Notes: generated by a model not told the origin, from the sequence alone. Numbered from the stretch's first letter, positions 1,291 through 18,855 are shown. The stretch is DNA of 64,000 nucleotides from Ethanoligenens harbinense YUAN-3 (GCF_000178115.2 NC_014828.1:124001-188000); one strand, 5' to 3'. Made by a program: numbers and translations.

Positions 1291-2691
1291 GTGAAGAAAA
1301 CAAGCATCATTCTTTTGACATACAACAATTTAGACGATACGGCGCTTTGTGTGGAAAGCATACGAAGCAACACGCCCGCTGACTCTTATGAACTCATCGT
1401 AGTGGACAATCACTCTACGGACGGTACGCCGGACTGGATTCAAGAGCAGACGGATATCCGGTTTATCCGAAATGAAAGCAATAGAGGGTTTCCTGCCGGA
1501 TGCAACCAGGGTATCCAAACAGCACAAGAGGGAAACGACATCCTGCTGCTAAACAACGACACCATGGTTATGCCGAATTGGCTGCAAAATCTCCAGCGAT
1601 GTCTGTACAGCCGGGAAGATGTCGGCGCCGTCGGCCCCGTGACAAATTGCTGTTCCAACGATCAGCAGATTCAAATCGACCGTTCAAAAGAAAGCAGCCT
1701 GCTTTCTTTTGCCCGCAAATTCAATCGTGCAAAACCGAATTACGAGCGTAAAATCAAGCTGGTCGGTTTTTGTCTGCTGATCAGACGCACGGTCGTCCAA
1801 AAAATCGGGCTGCTGGATGAACGGTTCTATCCCGGCAACTATGAGGATGACGACTATTCGTTTCGTATTCAACGTGCCGGATACCAATTGTTGCTTAGCA
1901 AAAATACATTTATCTATCATAAAGGAAGCGCTTCGTTCGGAAAAGACCCCAAGGCTTATCAAACAGCCTTGGAGGTCAATGCCAAAAAATTTGAAGGAAA
2001 ATGGGGATTCAACGCTACCTATTCCACGTTTGTGCGGTATGATATTCTTTCGTTCATGCAGCCGAAACAAAACAGTCCGCTTCGTGTTTTGGAAGTCGGC
2101 TGTGCGTGTGGTGCGACCCTTCTGAAAATCAAAGAGCAGTTTCCCAATGCGGAAATTTACGGCATCGAGTGCAATGCGGCCTCCGCAGCCATTGCATCCA
2201 GGTTTGCCGACATCCAGAGCGTTGATATCGAGCAAGTGCAGCTTGATTACGATACGCAGACTTTCGACTATATTCTGTTTGCGGACGTATTGGAACATTT
2301 GCGGGATCCGGAGCGGGCGCTGCGAAATGTTAGGCAATATCTGAAGACAGGCGGAGCTGTTTTAGCCAGCATCCCCAACATCATGCATTATTCCGTCTTG
2401 TCCGGTTTGTTAAACGGAAATTTCACATATCAGGATGCCGGTATTCTGGACCGCACACACCTCCGGTTCTTTACCCTTGCGGAAATAATCCGGCTGTTTG
2501 CCGTATGCGGGTATACGCTTCCGGTCATACAAAGCAAACAGCTTCCGCGAAGCAGCCAAAGCAACGAATGGGTAGACCGTCTGGTTGCGGTATCCGGCGA
2601 AGAGAAACGCCAGCAGTTTGAAACATATCAATATCTGTTAAAGGCGCAGATGGGTCCGCAAACATCCGAAAAAGGAGCTGCATTCGGTTGA
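1291..2691 (+). CDS. Family 2 glycosyltransferase fused to a class I SAM methyltransferase
   Basis: This 466-residue, two-domain protein has a GT2 glycosyltransferase at residues ~3-230. Visible are the nucleotide-sugar start SIILLTYNN, VVDNHSTDGT, the LLNNDT acidic motif, and the acceptor-side block DERFYPGNYEDDDYSFR typical of rhamnosyltransferase-like GT2 enzymes. Residues ~262-400 form a SAM-dependent methyltransferase with motif I LEVGCACGATLLKIK and the later FDYILFADVLEHL. It probably transfers a sugar and methylates it or a neighbouring residue on a surface polymer or glycoprotein. I prefer the GTG at 1291, preceded by AGGGTGGT at 7 bases, over upstream in-frame ATGs at 1174, 1243, 1258 and 1273. 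It converges on three leftward genes that include a second glycosyltransferase and a repeat protein, which suggests a common glycosylation job. Confidence 0.85.
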   Translation: MKKTSIILLTYNNLDDTALCVESIRSNTPADSYELIVVDNHSTDGTPDWIQEQTDIRFIRNESNRGFPAGCNQGIQTAQEGNDILLLNNDTMVMPNWLQNLQRCLYSREDVGAVGPVTNCCSNDQQIQIDRSKESSLLSFARKFNRAKPNYERKIKLVGFCLLIRRTVVQKIGLLDERFYPGNYEDDDYSFRIQRAGYQLLLSKNTFIYHKGSASFGKDPKAYQTALEVNAKKFEGKWGFNATYSTFVRYDILSFMQPKQNSPLRVLEVGCACGATLLKIKEQFPNAEIYGIECNAASAAIASRFADIQSVDIEQVQLDYDTQTFDYILFADVLEHLRDPERALRNVRQYLKTGGAVLASIPNIMHYSVLSGLLNGNFTYQDAGILDRTHLRFFTLAEIIRLFAVCGYTLPVIQSKQLPRSSQSNEWVDRLVAVSGEEKRQQFETYQYLLKAQMGPQTSEKGAAFG

Positions 2692-2847
2692 CCACCGGCC
2701 TGCGTCCATAAACGCATTCAGCAAAGGCCCGGGTTCGCCGCGGCAGGCACTCCATCCTGCGGCAAAGCGAACCTGAACCTTTTTTTCGTTTGGGCAAAGC
2801 ACGGCGGCCATTCGTTTCCTGTCCCCGATTGCGAAAACAGATATCCA

Positions 2848-3225
2848 TCACATCTGCATTTGCGCCCATATCTGCGCGGTGCCTGGACCGCCGATTCCGG
2901 CAATACGTAACCCTTTGGAAAAAATGCAGGGAACCAATGAGCCGATTTCGTCCGGGTCCAAGGATAAAATCTGCGTGTCGTTCACGAAATGCCGGCCGTC
3001 CGGCGTATTTTGAATATGAACTTTGATGGGCGCTTCTCCAGTATTGTAAACAAAGACCGTGAGTATCCGGGCATCCCATATACCGATGACGGGCGTATAC
3101 GTATAAGCGTACGGGTTGGTTTTTAAAAAAACCATTCGTTCAAAAAAGCGGCCTTTCGGCGGCATATCCATTTTGCTGCCATCGCACTTGAAGGAGTCTG
3201 CATAATTTGGAAACGATATATCCAT
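2848..3225 (-). CDS. Small conserved protein with the same C-terminal domain as the repeat protein (DUF6385-like)
   Basis: This is a 125-residue protein without signal peptide or membrane segment. Its core VFVYNTGEAPIKVHIQ and the ending QIWAQMQM match in pattern the C-terminal domain of the repeat protein at 5197-6110 (FFVHNVGSTPFTVSLE ... FQVFYNVQGS). The two are probably paralogous domains. I associate this pattern from memory with DUF6385, a domain often seen in clostridial and bacillal spore-surface or repeat proteins; that name is not verified here. It is the last gene of a leftward group, 47 bases after the TPR-type glycosyltransferase, and converges with the glycosyltransferase-methyltransferase. 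It could be a partner or cap of the repeat fibre. No enzymatic motif is visible. Confidence 0.65.
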   Translation of the reverse strand: MDISFPNYADSFKCDGSKMDMPPKGRFFERMVFLKTNPYAYTYTPVIGIWDARILTVFVYNTGEAPIKVHIQNTPDGRHFVNDTQILSLDPDEIGSLVPCIFSKGLRIAGIGGPGTAQIWAQMQM

Positions 3226-3272
3226 TTTGCCACCTCTTGATGATACGGACTTTGTACCCCTCAGCGATCTGC

Positions 3273-5090
3273 TCAGGCATGGATGGAATGGTAGAGAAGC
3301 GCCGCTCCGAATGCGTCCAGCGTATCCATTTCTTTAACGGACCGTAACACATTTTTGACGGCCATGGAGGAAAAACCGCGTTTTTGATAAAGCCCGGCCA
3401 GATAAAGCAGCACCTTCGGTGTATTGGCATAATTGATAATCGGGAGAAGCCTTTCAAACAAATCATATGCCCCGGCCATAAGCAGCTTGTCAAAAATCAG
3501 CATACAGCCGGCCGCGACGGCGTCCCCATTGTCTGCATCGTGCAAATAGACATCCGGCGCCTGCCGGGAGATGGCATCCATTTGCAGGCAAATGCGGTAA
3601 AACAGGTCCCCGGCGCTGGATCGAATCAAGCGGAGCTGCCCGCTATGCTCTGCTGTTTCCATAAGCTGCAGCAGGGCATACAGGTAGCACGCGCTCTCTC
3701 TTTCCATACCGGCCAGAATTTGCTTTGGGGACCGTGTTTGCGACAGAATGCGGCCAAACCAGTCGCTTGCATCCTCAAAACGGCGGTCCAGAAAAGCCGC
3801 GCGCGCGTGCAGATAAAGGCGTTCCCGCTCGAATTCTCCGGTGGATTTCCAATTGGTCAGCTCCATCCGCGCGGGCGCCATGCAATGTTCATTGAGAAGG
3901 ATATCAATCAAAACAATTTTGTTCGGCAGGTACTCCGGATCGGCAAAATAGGCGCGGAGCTTTCCATGTACTTCATCGGCACTGTTATACAGTTTATGCA
4001 AAGCCGTGCCGATGCGATACAAAAGGTTTGTCAGACGCGGGTTGTAGGCCAATGTTCGATTGTAATACAGGACAGCCATCTCATAATCTTCCAGTTCAAA
4101 GTACAGCTCGGCCAACTGGCATGCCGCGCGGTAGGTCCCGCATCCTTCCACAAACTGTAAGGCGGAGGGCGGTTCTCCCATCTCCAGGCAGGTTTCATAA
4201 CCGCGCACGGCCATCGTATCCTTTCCGCATTTGTGCCGGCCGAAGGCTTGCAGGAACAAAAAGTCTGTTCCGTTCGGATAAATGGATAGCGCTTCTTGCA
4301 AATATCGGTCGGCCTCGTCCATCCGGTTTGCATTTTGCAGGCAATTGGCTATACGGAAGAACAGATGGGGCACATAAGCCTGTTCGGGGTTCATGTGCAC
4401 ATAGGCCTTCTGGTAATAGGACAAGGCTTTTCCATAATCACCCAGTGCCAGATATTCATTGCCCATATTGAATAACGTAAAGGCATTTTGGGGATCACGC
4501 CGCAATTGCTTTTCCAGGAGCGGGATGTTGCGCTTGCGCTTGCCCTTTTTGCGGATTTCCTCCTCCAGATACCCATAATGGTCGATATGGATGGGCTCGA
4601 TGGAAAAACGGTTTCCGATGGGTTTTCCGTCTTTTCGGACGATTTGCTCATGGATTTCCCCTGCAAAGCAATACTCACCCGTATTGCGCAGAAGACGAAA
4701 TCCATTGTGAACCGTAAAATCGCCCGCGGCATCGCCACCCAAATAGTTGCGAATGGTAAAATGCGCGCCATCCAATGTGGTTGTAGAAATCCACTGCTGC
4801 AGTTTGTCCCGATCATTAGGGTCCAGCGCCTCATCGGCGTCCAATATCAGAATCCAGTCACCTGTAGCCTTATCCAGGCAAGCGTTGCGCGCCTTGCTGA
4901 AATCGTTTTGCCATTTTTCCTGATAAACGTGCGCACCGTATTGTTTTGCAATGGTGATCGTATGATCGGTAGAACCGGTATCCACCAAAATGATTTCATT
5001 CACAAGGTGTTTCACACTGTCCAAACATCTTGAGAGATTGTTTTCCTCGTTTTTGGTAATGATGCACAGACTGAGTGTTTGTTCCTGCAT
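3273..5090 (-). CDS. SunS-type family 2 glycosyltransferase with TPR-like tail
   Basis: This 605-residue protein starts from an ATG at 5090 with GAGAGG just upstream. Residues ~5-110 are a GT2 catalytic domain: LSLCIITKNEENNLSRCL, IILVDTGSTDHT, and the metal-binding DXD motif within WILILDADEAL. The family (TPR-containing GT2, including SunS-like enzymes) glycosylates peptides and proteins. Residues ~215-600 are helical repeats of TPR type (for example NAFTLFNMGNEYLALGDYGK), which usually bind the acceptor. It lies 106 bases downstream of the repeat protein and 47 bases upstream of the small domain-sharing protein, all leftward. The natural inference is that it glycosylates Ser/Thr residues of the adjacent repeat protein. 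The acceptor and sugar are not shown by sequence. Confidence 0.85.
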   Translation of the reverse strand: MQEQTLSLCIITKNEENNLSRCLDSVKHLVNEIILVDTGSTDHTITIAKQYGAHVYQEKWQNDFSKARNACLDKATGDWILILDADEALDPNDRDKLQQWISTTTLDGAHFTIRNYLGGDAAGDFTVHNGFRLLRNTGEYCFAGEIHEQIVRKDGKPIGNRFSIEPIHIDHYGYLEEEIRKKGKRKRNIPLLEKQLRRDPQNAFTLFNMGNEYLALGDYGKALSYYQKAYVHMNPEQAYVPHLFFRIANCLQNANRMDEADRYLQEALSIYPNGTDFLFLQAFGRHKCGKDTMAVRGYETCLEMGEPPSALQFVEGCGTYRAACQLAELYFELEDYEMAVLYYNRTLAYNPRLTNLLYRIGTALHKLYNSADEVHGKLRAYFADPEYLPNKIVLIDILLNEHCMAPARMELTNWKSTGEFERERLYLHARAAFLDRRFEDASDWFGRILSQTRSPKQILAGMERESACYLYALLQLMETAEHSGQLRLIRSSAGDLFYRICLQMDAISRQAPDVYLHDADNGDAVAAGCMLIFDKLLMAGAYDLFERLLPIINYANTPKVLLYLAGLYQKRGFSSMAVKNVLRSVKEMDTLDAFGAALLYHSIHA

Positions 5091-5196
5091 AGAAACCTCT
5101 CTTTCGCCTGAAAGAATGTATATTTGTACAGAAGGAATAAGAAACGTCCGTTGCGCGTTTGCGGACAACGGACGTTTCCCGGAAAGCACGGGCAGT

Positions 5197-6110
5197 TTAA
5201 GACCCTTGCACGTTATAAAAGACCTGAAACGTATTCTGCCCGAGCAGAGAGTACCGTACCCTTGCGTAATTGCCCAGCTTGGTGATGGCAAGCAAAACAT
5301 TCGCATTCGCTCCAACCAGTTGGCTGGCGTAGCTTGGGTCAACTGCATAATATGCGTCGTCGGCAATCGGACTGATCTCCAGAGAGACCGTGAACGGCGT
5401 GCTTCCAACATTATGGACGAAGAAGCTGCCCTCACGGATGCTGGAAATATCCAGGTTGTCGAAAGCGATGCTGGACGTGCTGGTTGTGATGGCAACACTG
5501 CCCGACGTAAATGCATATCCACTGATCAAGGCTGTAAGCGTGTCGTTGGCGATTGTGACCGCGTTGCCGACCGTCACGCTGCCGGCCACCGTCAGGCTGT
5601 CGTTGGCGATTGTGACCGCATTGCCGACCGTTACGCTGCCGGCCACCGTCAGGCTGTCGTTGGCGATTGTGACCGCGTTGCCGACCGTTACGCTGCCGGC
5701 CACCGTCAGGCTGTTGTTGGCAATCGTGACCGCGTTGCCGACCGTTACGCTGCCGGCCACCGTCAGGCTGTTGTTGGCGATGTGACCGCGTTGCCGACCG
5801 TTACGCTGCCGGCCACCGTCAGGCTGTTGTTGGCGATTGTAACCGCGTTGCCGACCGTTACGCTACCGGCCACCGTCAGGCTGTCGTTGGCGATCGTGAC
5901 CGCGTTGCCGACCGTCACGCTGCCGGCCACTGTCAGGCTGTTGTTGGCGATCGTGACCGCGTTGCCGACAGCTACGCCAATATTACCGTCCGCATCGCTT
6001 TGAATGGCTTGAAAACTGGAATCCGGCGCTTGTGCGTATATACTGGTTTTTAATTGTTCGGCTTCTGTATTAAATACCAGATTGTTCATATGCTGAACTC
6101 GCTTTATCAT
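5197..6110 (-). CDS. Surface/spore-type repeat protein (eight 19-residue repeats plus C-terminal domain), interrupted by a one-base frameshift
   Basis: The N-terminal part (from ATG 6110, or more likely ATG 6089) reads NNLVFNTEAEQLKTSIYAQ and then enters 19-residue repeats of the form GSVTVGNAVTIANNSLTVA. The frame breaks near 5780, where one unit has GGCGATGTGACC instead of the GGCGATTGTGACC of its neighbours (plus strand). Downstream the repeats resume in another frame, make eight units in all, and lead into a domain of about 110 residues ending at 5197, which resembles the small protein at 2848-3225. There is no signal peptide, as in exosporium filament proteins assembled from the mother cell. 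The repeats are rich in V, N, A and T/S and would suit a beta-solenoid with glycosylatable side chains. The frameshift may be a true mutation, a phase-variation state or an assembly error in repeats. Confidence 0.75.
5531..5986 (-). repeat. Eight tandem 57-bp repeats inside the repeat protein gene
   Basis: Eight head-to-tail copies of a 57-base unit (56 in the frameshifted copy) encode 19-residue repeats. Copies differ mainly at codon 14 (Asn or Asp) and by synonymous changes, so the array is recent or kept homogeneous by recombination. The missing base lies at about 5780. Confidence 0.9.
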
Positions 6111-6325
6111 AGATTTGAGTGCTCTGTATGGCGCTCTCTACAGCATATGCGGACACGGGGCGGTTGTCCCGTTTGTTTAGTTTGGCAGAAGAGCGTCCTC
6201 GTTCCGCCGCTCCCTATGTTCAAGGAAGCCGGACACACAGAACGCAAGGTTGCTTGAAACGTTCTCGGAAATTTGCAAATGCAAAATGAACCTGTTCGCA
6301 AACAGCAACGGCCACATACAAAAAG

Positions 6326-6349: not shown

Positions 6350-6552
6350 TAAAACAGGAAAACGGCGATAAACAAAATTAAACTTTCCTTGACACGGCGA
6401 GGATGCTATACTGTGAGGTATATGAACCTTTGCAGATCTCTCCGCCGGGCGGAATACGTCGCGGCCTCCCGGCAGGGCAGGCCCGCGGAGAGAATCAACG
6501 GGTCTTTTTACAACTGTACATCATGGAAACGAATCATAAAAGGAGGAGCGCC

Positions 6553-7230
6553 ATGCTATACCCCCATGACATGGAATTTTTAGCGCAGCATCTGCCTTTT
6601 CTGGCGCGTCTGAGCGAAAACGACCGCCGTTTGATTGCTGCGGCGGGTTTGAAGTCTTCCTTTGAGAAGGGGGAGACCATCCTCAGCCGTGAAAAAGAGT
6701 GCAACGGGCTGATTGTAGTTGAAAGCGGCCAGTTACGCGCCTTTTTTGAGCTGGAAGACGGTAAGGAACTGACGCTTTACCGGCTGCTTGCAGGCGACAT
6801 CTGCATTCTGAGCGCTTCCTGTGTCCTGAAAAACATCACCTTCGAGGTGACACTGGAAGTGGAAAAAGCCGGCAGCGTATATTTCATCCCGGCCGCCCTG
6901 TTGGGCAGCCTCTCCGAGCGGGAGAGCGCGGTCAAGCAGTTTACGATGGAACTGGTTTCCGAGCGCTTTTCCGAAGTGATGTGGGTGATGGAGCAGATGG
7001 TCACCAAAAACATGGGCCAGCGCGTGGCCGCCTTCCTGCTGGAGCAAACCAATCTGGAAGGCTCGCAGATCCTGACCATCACCCATGACACCATTGCAAA
7101 AAACCTGGGAACGGCCCGCGAGGTCGTTAGCCGGGTACTCAAATATATGGAAAATGACGGCGTGATTGAACTTTCTCGCGGGAAGATCACCATCACGCAG
7201 GCAAAAAAACTGCAGGAGATAAGCCACTGA
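6553..7230 (+). CDS. Crp/Fnr-family transcriptional regulator
   Basis: This is a 225-residue protein from ATG 6553, preceded by AGGAGG at 6541-6546. Longer in-frame starts at 6403 lack a ribosome binding site. Residues ~15-130 are a cyclic-nucleotide-binding-type beta barrel (ILSREKECNGLIVVESGQL, then the DICILSASC pair of cysteines common in clostridial members). Residues ~150-220 carry the Crp-type helix-turn-helix with recognition helix GTAREVVSRVLKYME. There is no N-terminal cysteine cluster, so it is not an oxygen-sensing FNR. The cysteines or a small ligand may be the signal. Its neighbours thioredoxin and a CoA-disulfide reductase fusion suggest a thiol-redox role, but this is inference from position. 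Confidence 0.88.
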   Translation: MLYPHDMEFLAQHLPFLARLSENDRRLIAAAGLKSSFEKGETILSREKECNGLIVVESGQLRAFFELEDGKELTLYRLLAGDICILSASCVLKNITFEVTLEVEKAGSVYFIPAALLGSLSERESAVKQFTMELVSERFSEVMWVMEQMVTKNMGQRVAAFLLEQTNLEGSQILTITHDTIAKNLGTAREVVSRVLKYMENDGVIELSRGKITITQAKKLQEISH

Positions 7231-7245
7231 CGCGGAAAACAAAAA

Positions 7246-7280
7246 ATGCCGGATCCTGCGCAATGGCAAGGCACCGGCAT
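7246..7280 (+). terminator. Possible terminator of the Crp/Fnr gene
   Basis: ATGCCGG (7246-7252) pairs with CCGGCAT (7274-7280) over an imperfect loop, 15 bases past the stop, with GTTTTTAG about 10 bases further. The A-run at 7240-7245 would serve the opposite strand, downstream of the converging thioredoxin gene. Confidence 0.4.
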
Positions 7281-7355
7281 CCGTTCCTATGTTTTTAGAG
7301 CCTGTTCATACAACAAACAACAAAACTGCAAATCCCCTTATTTGTGGATAGGATT

Positions 7356-7679
7356 TTAAACGCTGACCGTGCGGAGAATGGAGAGCAGCTCGGCTCCGGA
7401 TGTCACCCCGGTTCTGCGCCCCACGATCCTTCCGTCCTTGACAAACACGAGCGTGGGGATGCTCATGACCGAAAACTGCGCGGCAAGCTCGGGGTTTTCA
7501 TCCACGTTCAGTTTCGCAACAACTGCGGCACCTTCGAGTTTCTCCGCGAGTTCTTCAATGACGGGAGACTGCATCCGGCAGGGCCCGCACCAGGATGCCC
7601 AGAAATCAATCAGCACCGGTTTGTCGGTGTTCAGGACCACATCTTCAAAATTGCTGCGGTTCAATGAGATGGCAGACAT
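7356..7679 (-). CDS. trxA: Thioredoxin
   Basis: This is a 107-residue protein starting at ATG 7679 with AGGAAAGGA upstream. It has the whole thioredoxin fold and the active site WASWCGPCR, followed by PVIEELAE, and the cis-proline segment MSIPTLVFVKDG. It is a cytosolic dithiol reductase for ribonucleotide reductase, peroxiredoxins and other disulfides, normally recharged by thioredoxin reductase, which is not in this window. It is transcribed alone, converging with the Crp/Fnr gene and diverging from the methyltransferase. The frame extends upstream to 7763, but that extension lacks a ribosome binding site and family similarity. Confidence 0.95.
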   Translation of the reverse strand: MSAISLNRSNFEDVVLNTDKPVLIDFWASWCGPCRMQSPVIEELAEKLEGAAVVAKLNVDENPELAAQFSVMSIPTLVFVKDGRIVGRRTGVTSGAELLSILRTVSV

Positions 7680-7802
7680 TGCAATCACCAATCCTTTCCT
7701 GATTCTGTTGTCAATATACCCTGTGCGCCCGCGTATTTCCGTAACATCATCACGCAGGGGCACGTTGGCAGGCGTTTTTTAAAAACAAGGAGGTCACAGT
7801 AT

Positions 7803-16421: not shown

Positions 16422-17885
16422 TCAGATATAAATGGTATGCCCCGATTTTTGATTGACCGTCGCGCGGATACAGTCTCCGACGATATGCAGCCCTTTGTCC
16501 AGCTCTTTTGCGGACGCGAAGCTGATGCGAAGATGCCGCTCGAAGCCTGCCATCGGCGAGATGTAAAACAGGCTGCCGGGCGCCACCAGCACATGCTGCT
16601 CCTTGCAGCGGTAAAAAATTTCCCGGTCGGTGATGTCCCCCGGCAGCGTGAGCCAGATGCCGAACCCGCCCTTCACCTCGCCGGCCCGCACGCCAAACGG
16701 CTTCCACGCGGCCACTCGTGCCAGCGCGGCGGCCGCCCGCTTCCGGTAGGCGCCGGTGATCTGCCCGATGTTTTTTCCCCAGCAGCCGGACTGAAAATAA
16801 GCCGCAAGCGCCCGCTGGATAAGCCCCGAGCCGGAAATGTCGGTGGCGTATTTGACGGCGGAGAGACGCTCGAGCAGCTTCGCGGGCGCGATCACATACC
16901 CCGTGCGGATGCCGGGCATCAGCAGCTTGGAAAAGCTCTTGACATAGACCACCCGCCCCGCCGTATCCTCCGCCTTGAGCGGGAACAGCCGCTCGCCTTT
17001 CAGGTTCACGTCTGAAAACAGATCGTCCTCGATGATATAGAAATCGTACTGCTCGGCCAGCCGGAGCAGACGCCTCCGCTTTTCCACCGACAGGCTCACA
17101 CCCGTGGGCGTCTGATAGACCGGCATGGTGTAAAGCAGGCGTGGGCGGTAGCGCTGTGCGTAATAGGCCAGAATATCCAGATTCAGGCCGTCGGCTTCCA
17201 TGGGTATGCCGAACAGCTTTGCCCCCTGCAAGGTGAAAACCGAACGCATGCCGATATAGGACGGCATTTCGGCAAAAACGGTGTCTCCCGCGTGCAGAGT
17301 GGCTTTGGAGAGCAGGTCCAGCGCCTGTTGGGCGCCGGAGGTGACCAGAATTTCCTCCGGACGGCAGCGGATGCCGTACTGTGTTTGTGAAAAGGATGCC
17401 AGAATTTCCCGCAGCGGGTAATATCCTTCGCTTTCCTGATAGGAGAACGCATAACCGCCGTCGGTGTCCAGCACCGTGTTGACGGCTTCTTTGAACTCCG
17501 CCACCGGGAACACCTCCGCCGTGGGGGAATTGCCCGCCAGGTCGATCATCTCCCCGGAGAGCGTCAGCCGCCCGTTGCTCAGGTCGGTATAGTCGCCGAA
17601 CAGGTCGGCCACCTCGTCCTCTTTGGGCGGCGGAACCGTCGGCGGCAGCAGATAGGTGCCGCTGCCCGGCCTGGTGTAGGCGACGCCCTTTTCCTCCAAC
17701 ACGCGATAGGCGGCCACCACGGTGGCGTTGTTCACCCCGAGCCGCCCGGCCAGCGCGCGCACCGACGGCAGGCGCTCGCCGCCCGGGGCGCCGCTTTCCC
17801 GCAGCCGGTTCTCGATGGTGTCGGCCAGCGCGTGATAAAGCGGTTTGCCCGTTTTCTTGAATTGTATCGATACAATTTCCAGCAT
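16422..17885 (-). CDS. pdxR: MocR-family regulator of pyridoxal phosphate synthesis (PdxR)
   Basis: This is a 487-residue protein starting at ATG 17885; the in-frame ATG at 17900 has its only Shine-Dalgarno sequence touching it, so I prefer the inner one. Residues ~10-75 form a GntR winged helix (LPSVRALAGRLGVNNATVVAAYRVLEEKG). Residues ~120-480 are a fold-type-I aminotransferase domain; the PLP lysine is in VYVKSFSKLLMPGIR. The protein is divergent from pdxST with only 91 bases between starts, the arrangement known for PdxR of Listeria, streptococci and corynebacteria. PdxR activates or represses pdxST according to PLP level. Assignment rests on family and position together. Confidence 0.88.
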   Translation of the reverse strand: MLEIVSIQFKKTGKPLYHALADTIENRLRESGAPGGERLPSVRALAGRLGVNNATVVAAYRVLEEKGVAYTRPGSGTYLLPPTVPPPKEDEVADLFGDYTDLSNGRLTLSGEMIDLAGNSPTAEVFPVAEFKEAVNTVLDTDGGYAFSYQESEGYYPLREILASFSQTQYGIRCRPEEILVTSGAQQALDLLSKATLHAGDTVFAEMPSYIGMRSVFTLQGAKLFGIPMEADGLNLDILAYYAQRYRPRLLYTMPVYQTPTGVSLSVEKRRRLLRLAEQYDFYIIEDDLFSDVNLKGERLFPLKAEDTAGRVVYVKSFSKLLMPGIRTGYVIAPAKLLERLSAVKYATDISGSGLIQRALAAYFQSGCWGKNIGQITGAYRKRAAAALARVAAWKPFGVRAGEVKGGFGIWLTLPGDITDREIFYRCKEQHVLVAPGSLFYISPMAGFERHLRISFASAKELDKGLHIVGDCIRATVNQKSGHTIYI

Positions 17886-17902
17886 AAAATCCCGCTCCAT
17901 CC

Positions 17903-17932
17903 TTGAATCCACAGGAATCGGATTACTATAAT
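17903..17932 (+). promoter_or_regulatory. Divergent pdxR/pdxS promoter region
   Basis: For pdxS, TTGAAT (17903-17908) and TATAAT (17927-17932) are 18 bases apart. For pdxR, a minus-strand TATTAT overlaps the same -10 and has a TTGCGT 16 bases upstream. The two promoters overlap, so one bound PdxR dimer could control both. Confidence 0.6.
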
Positions 17933-17976
17933 AATAACACGTTAAGATTGTAACGCAACAGTTTGGAGGAATTTTC

Positions 17977-18855
17977 GTGAGTGACCGGTATGAACTGAAC
18001 AAGAACCTGGCGCAGATGCTCAAGGGCGGCGTCATTATGGACGTGACCACGGCGAAAGAAGCCGAAATCGCGCAGGCCGCGGGCGCGGTAGCCGTGATGG
18101 CGCTGGAGCGCGTGCCTTCCGATATCCGCAAGGAGGGCGGCGTGGCCCGCATGTCCGACCCGCGCATCATCAAGGAAATCAAAAATGCGGTGACCATCCC
18201 GGTGATGGCCAAATGCCGCATCGGCCATCTGGTGGAGGCGCAGGTTTTGCAGGCGCTGGGCATCGACTATATCGACGAGAGCGAAGTGCTCACCCCTGCC
18301 GACGACCGGTTCCACATCGACAAGCACGCGTTTAACATCCCGTTTGTGTGCGGCGCGCGCAACCTGGGCGAGGCCCTGCGGCGCATCGGCGAGGGCGCGG
18401 CCATGATCCGCACCAAGGGTGAGGCCGGCACCGGCAACGTGGTGGAAGCCGTGCGCCACATGCGCACCATCACCGCGGACATCCGCCGGCTGCAAAACCT
18501 GCCCGCGGACGAACTGATGACGGCGGCCAAAGAACTGGGCGCGCCTTATGACCTGGTGGAGGAGCTTGCCGAGACCGGGAAGCTGCCGGTGGTCAACTTC
18601 GCGGCGGGCGGTATCGCCACTCCGGCGGACGCTGCGCTGATGATGCAGCTTGGCAGCGAAGGCGTGTTCGTCGGCTCGGGCATCTTCAAATCCGCCGACC
18701 CGGAAAAGCGCGCCCGCGCCATCGTGAAAGCGACCACCTATTACAACAAGCCCGAGATCATCGCGGAAGTCTCCGAAGATCTCGGCGAGCCGATGAAGGG
18801 CATCGACCTGAACACCATCCCCGAAGAAGAGCGGCTGGCGACAAGGGGCTGGTGA
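17977..18855 (+). CDS. pdxS: Pyridoxal 5'-phosphate synthase subunit PdxS
   Basis: This is a 292-residue protein with a GTG start at 17977 placed 8 bases after TTGGAGGAA. It is the synthase of the DXP-independent pathway and condenses ribose 5-phosphate, glyceraldehyde 3-phosphate and ammonia into PLP. The family signature [18 protein letters not shown] and [20 protein letters not shown] near the N-terminus, and phosphate-binding [14 protein letters not shown] near the C-terminus, are all present. Length matches the family. pdxT follows after one base, so both subunits are made together and form the 12+12 complex. Regulation by the adjacent PdxR is likely. Confidence 0.98.

Follow-up and report, generated by a model that had tools for sequence, protein, structure and literature searches.

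What purpose might a compact cluster of genes serve that encodes a protein of 19-residue repeats, a small protein with the same C-terminal domain, a glycosyltransferase with a tetratricopeptide (TPR) tail and a glycosyltransferase-methyltransferase fusion, in a bacterium that has been reported not to form spores? The cluster lies at positions 1291 to 6110 of the 64,000-nucleotide stretch of Ethanoligenens harbinense YUAN-3 DNA analyzed here (NC_014828.1:124001-188000, "the window" hereafter), part of a single contig of 3,008,576 bp, and an earlier note on this DNA had likened it to the loci behind the glycosylated BclA filaments of the exosporium. Its features are collected in Table 1.

Table 1. 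Features of the locus, in window coordinates.
Feature	Position	Strand	Basis or remark
GT2-SAM methyltransferase fusion, GTG start	1291-2691	+	Glycos_transf_2 78.8 bits, Methyltransf_23 74.5 bits (Pfam)
Small DUF6385 protein, 125 aa	2848-3225	-	PF19912 45.3 bits; 124-aa counterpart L097:4596-4970 (Sinanaerobacter)
Protein glycosyltransferase of the GmaR/SgtA/SunS type, GT-A domain and long TPR tail, 605 aa	3273-5090	-	Pfam, PDB match, alignment
Repeat-stalk and DUF6385 gene, frameshifted	5197-6110	-	ORF1 + ORF2; likely start ATG at 6089
DUF6385 head domain, predicted jelly roll	5200-5541	-	AF2 model, PDB fold matches
Tandem array, 57-bp/19-residue unit, VGNAVTIAN[ND]SLTVAGSVT	5541-5977	-	TRF, unit table
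Site of 1-bp deletion, repeat unit 4, near 5782, CACAATCGCC to CACATCGCC	5780-5784	-	Spacing 56 vs 57 bp
Sigma-K-like promoter candidate: AC (6167-6166), 16 bp, CATATGCTG (6149-6141)	6141-6167	-	One mismatch; 60 bp upstream of the likely start

The Repeat Gene and Its Interruption

The minus strand carries, in this order, the repeat gene, the GT-TPR glycosyltransferase and the small DUF6385 protein, and the glycosyltransferase-methyltransferase fusion converges on them. The unsignalled repeat protein of the earlier note holds good as far as the array is concerned (7.7 copies, 94% matches, score 755 by TRF), and no signal peptide is apparent on inspection by eye, but it is not a single open reading frame: a 1-bp deletion splits the gene into ORF1 (5763-6110) and ORF2 (5197-5760). 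The distances between successive unit starts are 57, 57, 57, 56, 57, 57 and 57 bp, and it is because of the one spacing of 56 instead of 57 bp that a base can be said to be gone from unit 4. ORF1 ends five codons past the deletion, which puts the stalk in one frame and the DUF6385 head in another, the head being encoded by ORF2 and absent from ORF1. Past the deletion, the rest of the gene is intact and in frame, and the deletion site is not a homopolymer tract.

The repeat unit, VGNAVTIANDSLTVAGSVT, is not of the Gly-X-Y type, and no Collagen match was obtained, which agrees with the non-collagen protein proposed earlier; 25% of the array residues are Ser/Thr and none is Cys. Depending on the start codon, the protein begins MNNLVF or MIKRVQH, its homologues beginning MPNNLVF, and, judging from the sequences, the likely start is the second Met (6089), at which the homologues' common motif begins. 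Intact counterparts of 283 aa and 292 aa occur in Sinanaerobacter (L097) and in genome G303 (L058), respectively, and share with the window protein an N-terminal and repeat "vocabulary" of NNL, LKTS, APDSS/APDTS and SLTVAG. No clear frameshift was seen in the homologues examined, of which L101 and L106 contain masked stretches that could not be judged, and the same-genus genome G001, which is 62% complete, gave no DUF6385 match.

As for the surroundings, window positions 6403-7763 hold what is, by eye, a probable Crp/Fnr-type regulator and a thioredoxin (7356-7763), the latter very probably Ethha_0126, for which a 183-fold increase at pH 8 has been reported (PMC7268672). Phage tail-like and resolvase genes, also recognized by eye, are found at G000 106001-113874 (L071:1-7874), and are probably the end of a prophage some 11 kb upstream of the locus.

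The DUF6385 Head

A search of the C-terminal domain against protein families, as the earlier note had proposed, identified it as DUF6385 (PF19912), with 42.4 bits in the repeat gene and 45.3 bits in the small protein, both above the Pfam gathering cut-off of 26.8 bits, so the claim that the two proteins have this domain in common was correct. No paper using the name DUF6385 was found in the literature searched. The AF2 model of the window head, built from a 42-sequence alignment, has a mean pLDDT of 94.8 and a pTM of 0.85, and its PDB matches at E < 1e-3 by Foldseek are Ena2A (E 1.7e-4), Ena3A, Ena1B and PirA. A second aligner (VIA) placed XepA, PirA, YomS, Ena2A and Ena1B together at Z 10.6-11.3, with Ena at Z 10.6 and BclA at Z 8.4 (8% identity), many viral jelly rolls being likewise among the matches of the head. 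As the jelly roll is a common fold, which PirA and XepA have too, the match to Ena is not diagnostic; the predicted fold fits the heads of spore appendage and exosporium proteins, kinship not being proven thereby. DUF6385 alone gave nothing significant against solved structures, and in profile comparisons the hhalign probability was 1% for Enas, whose alignment consists of two sequences only, and 0.2% for DUF4183.

The full stalk-plus-head homologue L058 was modeled with moderate scores (pLDDT 75.7, pTM 0.45) and a beta-helical stalk, and the model of the repeats is similar to the beta-helices of phage tailspikes. The prediction folded a single chain, and the real protein could be oligomeric; the beta-helix may thus be artefactual, and we assign no fold to the stalk.

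The Glycosyltransferases

The "SunS-type" assignment given earlier to the neighboring glycosyltransferase proved loose, although its GT2 domain and TPR tail were recovered: it reaches 104.2 bits against the SunS equivalog (TIGR04195), whose cut-off is 350 bits, and GmaR is closer, being the best PDB match (E 9.3e-66), followed by SunS. While these two are its closest solved structures, their targets and genomic partners are different. The Asp residues D84 and D86 are invariant in the glycosyltransferase alignment (A5), identity to the Sinanaerobacter L097 enzyme is 43% over 606 aa, and Cys, which S-glycosylation would use, is absent from the repeat protein. GmaR is the flagellin O-GlcNAc transferase of Listeria, and SgtA of Clostridioides difficile, a GT-A plus TPR enzyme encoded beside bclA3, puts beta-O-GlcNAc on the repeat Thr residues of BclA3 in vitro (PMC7157674). 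The window enzyme has the SgtA/GmaR layout of a GT-A domain followed by TPR repeats, and SgtA is, by analogy, its closest functional precedent, albeit with 358 aa as opposed to about 600 aa.

A second GT-TPR gene of the same genome (2730170-2732641, L194, an 824-codon frame) directly adjoins flagellin, in the order fliD, cheB, cheA, GT-TPR, flagellin (2.722-2.734 Mb); the published tags with this gene order are Ethha_2541, 2543, 2546 and 2548 (PMC7268672), and the GT-TPR gene is probably Ethha_2547, a candidate flagellin glycosyltransferase. An FeFe-hydrogenase gene is found further on, at 2.80 Mb, roughly the place at which Ethha_2614 would be expected.

The convergent fusion was confirmed by Pfam just as it had been described, and could be the enzyme by which a glycan is extended and methylated. 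It shares 50% of its residues over 450 aa with a fusion of Romboutsia weinsteinii (L137), whose gene lies next to a GT-TPR gene and to one for a Ser/Thr-rich repeat protein. The Romboutsia repeat protein (L137:1-4068) is at least 1355 aa long, has an 11-residue periodicity and no Pfam match, and carries clusters of Cys close to either end of the part that was read.

The Module in Other Genomes

In an even sample of the class, DUF6385 was found in 25 of 391 Clostridia, and a GT-TPR homologue was present in the same fetched stretch in 14 of these 25, usually directly adjoining the DUF6385 genes; the same-family genome G003 has this arrangement too. Conversely, DUF6385 occurs within 6 kb in 19 of the best 80 glycosyltransferase matches among named genomes, the carriers belonging to Clostridia and Bacilli and including Sinanaerobacter, Anaerosolibacter, Thermoanaerobacterium, Desulforamulus and several Paenibacillus. 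The usual trio comprises a repeat-stalk DUF6385 protein, a glycosyltransferase of ~600 aa and a protein in which a CBM96/DNRLRE-like domain accompanies DUF6385. The small window protein is without the CBM96/DNRLRE-like domain that most such second partners have, and the same three genes, with a 124-aa DUF6385 protein and an intact repeat protein, are found in Sinanaerobacter L097. In the sampled genus g74, DUF6385 genes are mostly without a GT-TPR gene nearby.

The earlier note had named unrelated neighborhoods in close relatives as evidence that would speak against it; the comparison was run and did not refute the idea, the cluster being conserved in related genomes. Of the four-gene neighborhood envisaged there, the repeat gene, the glycosyltransferase and the second DUF6385 gene are indeed conserved together, but the glycosyltransferase-methyltransferase gene, which is also close to the module in L054 and L098, is only an occasional neighbor. 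Across the stalk proteins, an N-terminus of ~40 residues and the head are kept, the repeat units vary from ~11 to 43 residues, and the repeats contain 10-42% (mostly 20-42%) Ser/Thr and almost no Cys.

Several side observations deserve recording. Beside a DUF6385/GT module lie two genes (L055:14767-16107 and 17470-18282) that are collagen-like, match BclA_C weakly and have perfect sigma-K-like promoters. In L098:7829-9637 and L051:8739-10568, each adjoining the glycosyltransferase, a CBM96/DNRLRE-like domain replaces the GT domain and is fused to the TPR tail, the TPR part of the L051 chimera being nearly identical to that of the neighboring enzyme. Three Paenibacillus proteins without DUF6385 (L109:961-1542, L109:1574-2107 and L108:143-736) have the same M-x-N-x-x-[IV]FN-like start as the stalk proteins, possibly a common localization motif. 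Finally, a Cys-rich, CxCxC-type linker is found just before the head in the second DUF6385 partners L054:10381-11241, L056:8471-9334, L050:10467-11333 and L060:6477-7367.

Promoters and Sporulation Genes

The consensus letters of the sigma-K promoter used here were AC and CATAnnnTA, and the pattern scored was ACn15-18CATAnnnTA. The promoter itself is described as combining a -35 element of five bases and a -10 element of ten, with 14-16 bp between them (PMC517825). For this test only, near-identical relatives were removed by hand, leaving 21 non-redundant stalk genes; perfect matches precede 7 of these and 9 of 192 other genes of the same loci (p = 2e-4), and matches within one mismatch precede 15 of 21 and 56 of 192, respectively (p = 2e-4), phylogeny not being fully corrected for in either comparison. 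Two of the nine perfect background promoters belong to the collagen/BclA_C-like genes by the module in L055, and upstream A+T is 66% for module genes versus 69% for the background. Against shuffled sequences, the window candidate, taken alone, does not reach significance (p about 0.06).

SpoIVA is present in 23 of 25 DUF6385-positive and 257 of 366 DUF6385-negative genomes (p = 0.02, phylogeny uncorrected). The E. harbinense genome has SigE, SigK and SpoIVA, and the organism has been listed as a Spo0A-positive non-spore-former lacking spoIIM, spoIIP, spoIIIAF, spoVE and etfA (PMC3533761).

Comparison with Known Spore-Surface Systems

The likeness to the BclA3/SgtA pair of C. difficile consists of a repetitive, Thr-rich surface protein with a GT-A plus TPR gene next door and of the sigma-K-like promoters seen in homologues of the window gene; with BclA3 and the BclA of the Bacillus cereus group, the protein shares the plan of a short N-terminal part, variable repeats and a C-terminal jelly roll. 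In place of Gly-X-Y collagen, however, it has a beta-repeat stalk and a DUF6385 head, and no sequence match to BclA_C (PF18573) was found in it, so the likeness to that domain is at the fold level only.

Ena appendages have a jelly roll that is among the top PDB matches of the head, but the window protein has no Pfam match to Enas (PF13157), no sequence-profile similarity to it and, having no Cys, no N-terminal connector Cys-Cys motif, and it differs further in its long repeat stalk and its glycosyltransferase partner. Enas are absent from the E. harbinense genome, and membership by sequence was rejected on the Pfam result, this own-genome search and the profile comparison. F-ENA appendages (DUF4183), which occur in Bacilli and Clostridia and for which O-glycans on Ser/Thr are probable in an Anaerovoracaceae bacterium, likewise combine a head, a beta-structured neck and a conserved N-terminus. 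They are another family, though: the window protein has no DUF4183 Pfam match, the E. harbinense genome has no DUF4183, and membership was rejected on that absence and the profile comparison. An F-ENA-like hook was also considered from the homologue start MPNNLVF and dropped, as the window protein lacks the motif M-P-psi-psi-x-P-psi (M-P-x-x-x-P-x). That DUF6385 repeat proteins are further endospore appendage subunits, with Ena-like heads and beta-repeat stalks joined head to N-terminus into glycosylated fibers and with an O-glycosyltransferase of their own, in Clostridia and Paenibacillaceae, is speculative, and we would sooner bet against it.

Alternative Explanations

The glycosyltransferases might instead decorate a vegetative surface or flagellar protein, with the DUF6385 proteins being ordinary adhesins unrelated to spores; after all, the same GT family adjoins flagellin both in this very genome and in Fredinandcohnia L139, GmaR modifies flagellin, and the host is reported to be non-sporulating. 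We consider this unlikely, as the flagellar locus has a GT-TPR gene of its own, the DUF6385 proteins read show no obvious signal peptide or cell-wall anchor, and sigma-K-like promoters are enriched before the repeat genes. Even less probable seems a capsule or exopolysaccharide locus, in which the two glycosyltransferases would serve polysaccharide synthesis, the DUF6385 proteins would be lectin-like accessories and their adjacency would be incidental: sugar-nucleotide genes do lie near several homologous loci (L054, L098, L068 and L063), and most second partners have the CBM96-like domain, yet none of the ORFs beside the window locus was recognized as a sugar-nucleotide gene, and the enzyme has, in its TPR tail, the architecture of one with a protein acceptor, its closest characterized relatives acting on proteins. 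The tailspike-like repeat model and the many viral jelly rolls matching the head could also be read as the remnant of a phage tail fiber or decoration gene, but the conserved bacterial cluster with a protein glycosyltransferase makes such an origin very improbable. A phage origin was also dropped on searches that gave no PHROGs match and no phage-genome match.

A separate matter is whether the frameshift signifies decay at all, for it could be a sequencing error within repeats or a contingency switch operating by slippage or recombination, with the gene functional. This has a substantial chance of being true, although we lean the other way: the sequence past the deletion is intact and in frame, and the near-identity of the neighboring units could allow recombination to restore the frame, whereas the site is not a homopolymer tract, the homologues examined (L101 and L106 being masked in part) gave no clear frameshift and several sporulation genes are missing from the host (PMC3533761).

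Proposed Role and State of This Copy

By analogy, then, the locus seems rather likely to be one copy of a module, widespread in Firmicutes, whose product is an O-glycosylated protein of the spore surface, like BclA but without collagen, that the mother cell makes at a late stage. The BclA analogy of the earlier note is supported by the conserved cluster, the enrichment of sigma-K-like promoters, the jelly-roll head and the SgtA-like glycosyltransferase; what does not sit well with it is that the repeat gene is frameshifted and the host reported as non-spore-forming. Filament formation, glycosylation and a location on the spore are what we infer, and the process might run as follows. Late in sporulation, the mother cell would transcribe the module from a sigma-K-type promoter, and an unsignalled protein would be made, whose conserved N-terminus of ~40 residues may be an anchor or assembly motif, and whose body would consist of a Ser/Thr-rich beta-repeat stalk, variable in length over evolution, and a DUF6385 jelly-roll head. 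The neighboring GT-A/TPR enzyme would, in analogy with SgtA and GmaR, add an O-linked sugar, probably GlcNAc, to Ser/Thr of the stalk in the cytoplasm, the glycosyltransferase-methyltransferase may extend and methylate it, and the glycoprotein, together with the second DUF6385 partner, would either cover the spore or be assembled into short fibrils on its surface.

Barring a sequencing error at the deletion, the window copy itself is probably a remnant in the course of decay, since its structural gene is split by the loss of one base and its host is reported to be non-sporulating. Except in C. difficile, the exterior of clostridial endospores has been defined only poorly, and a conserved, unstudied module of a stalk, a dedicated glycosyltransferase and a partner head would give DUF6385 its first testable role and be a non-collagen counterpart of BclA, with Ethanoligenens exemplifying, as it would, the decay of a spore surface following the loss of sporulation.
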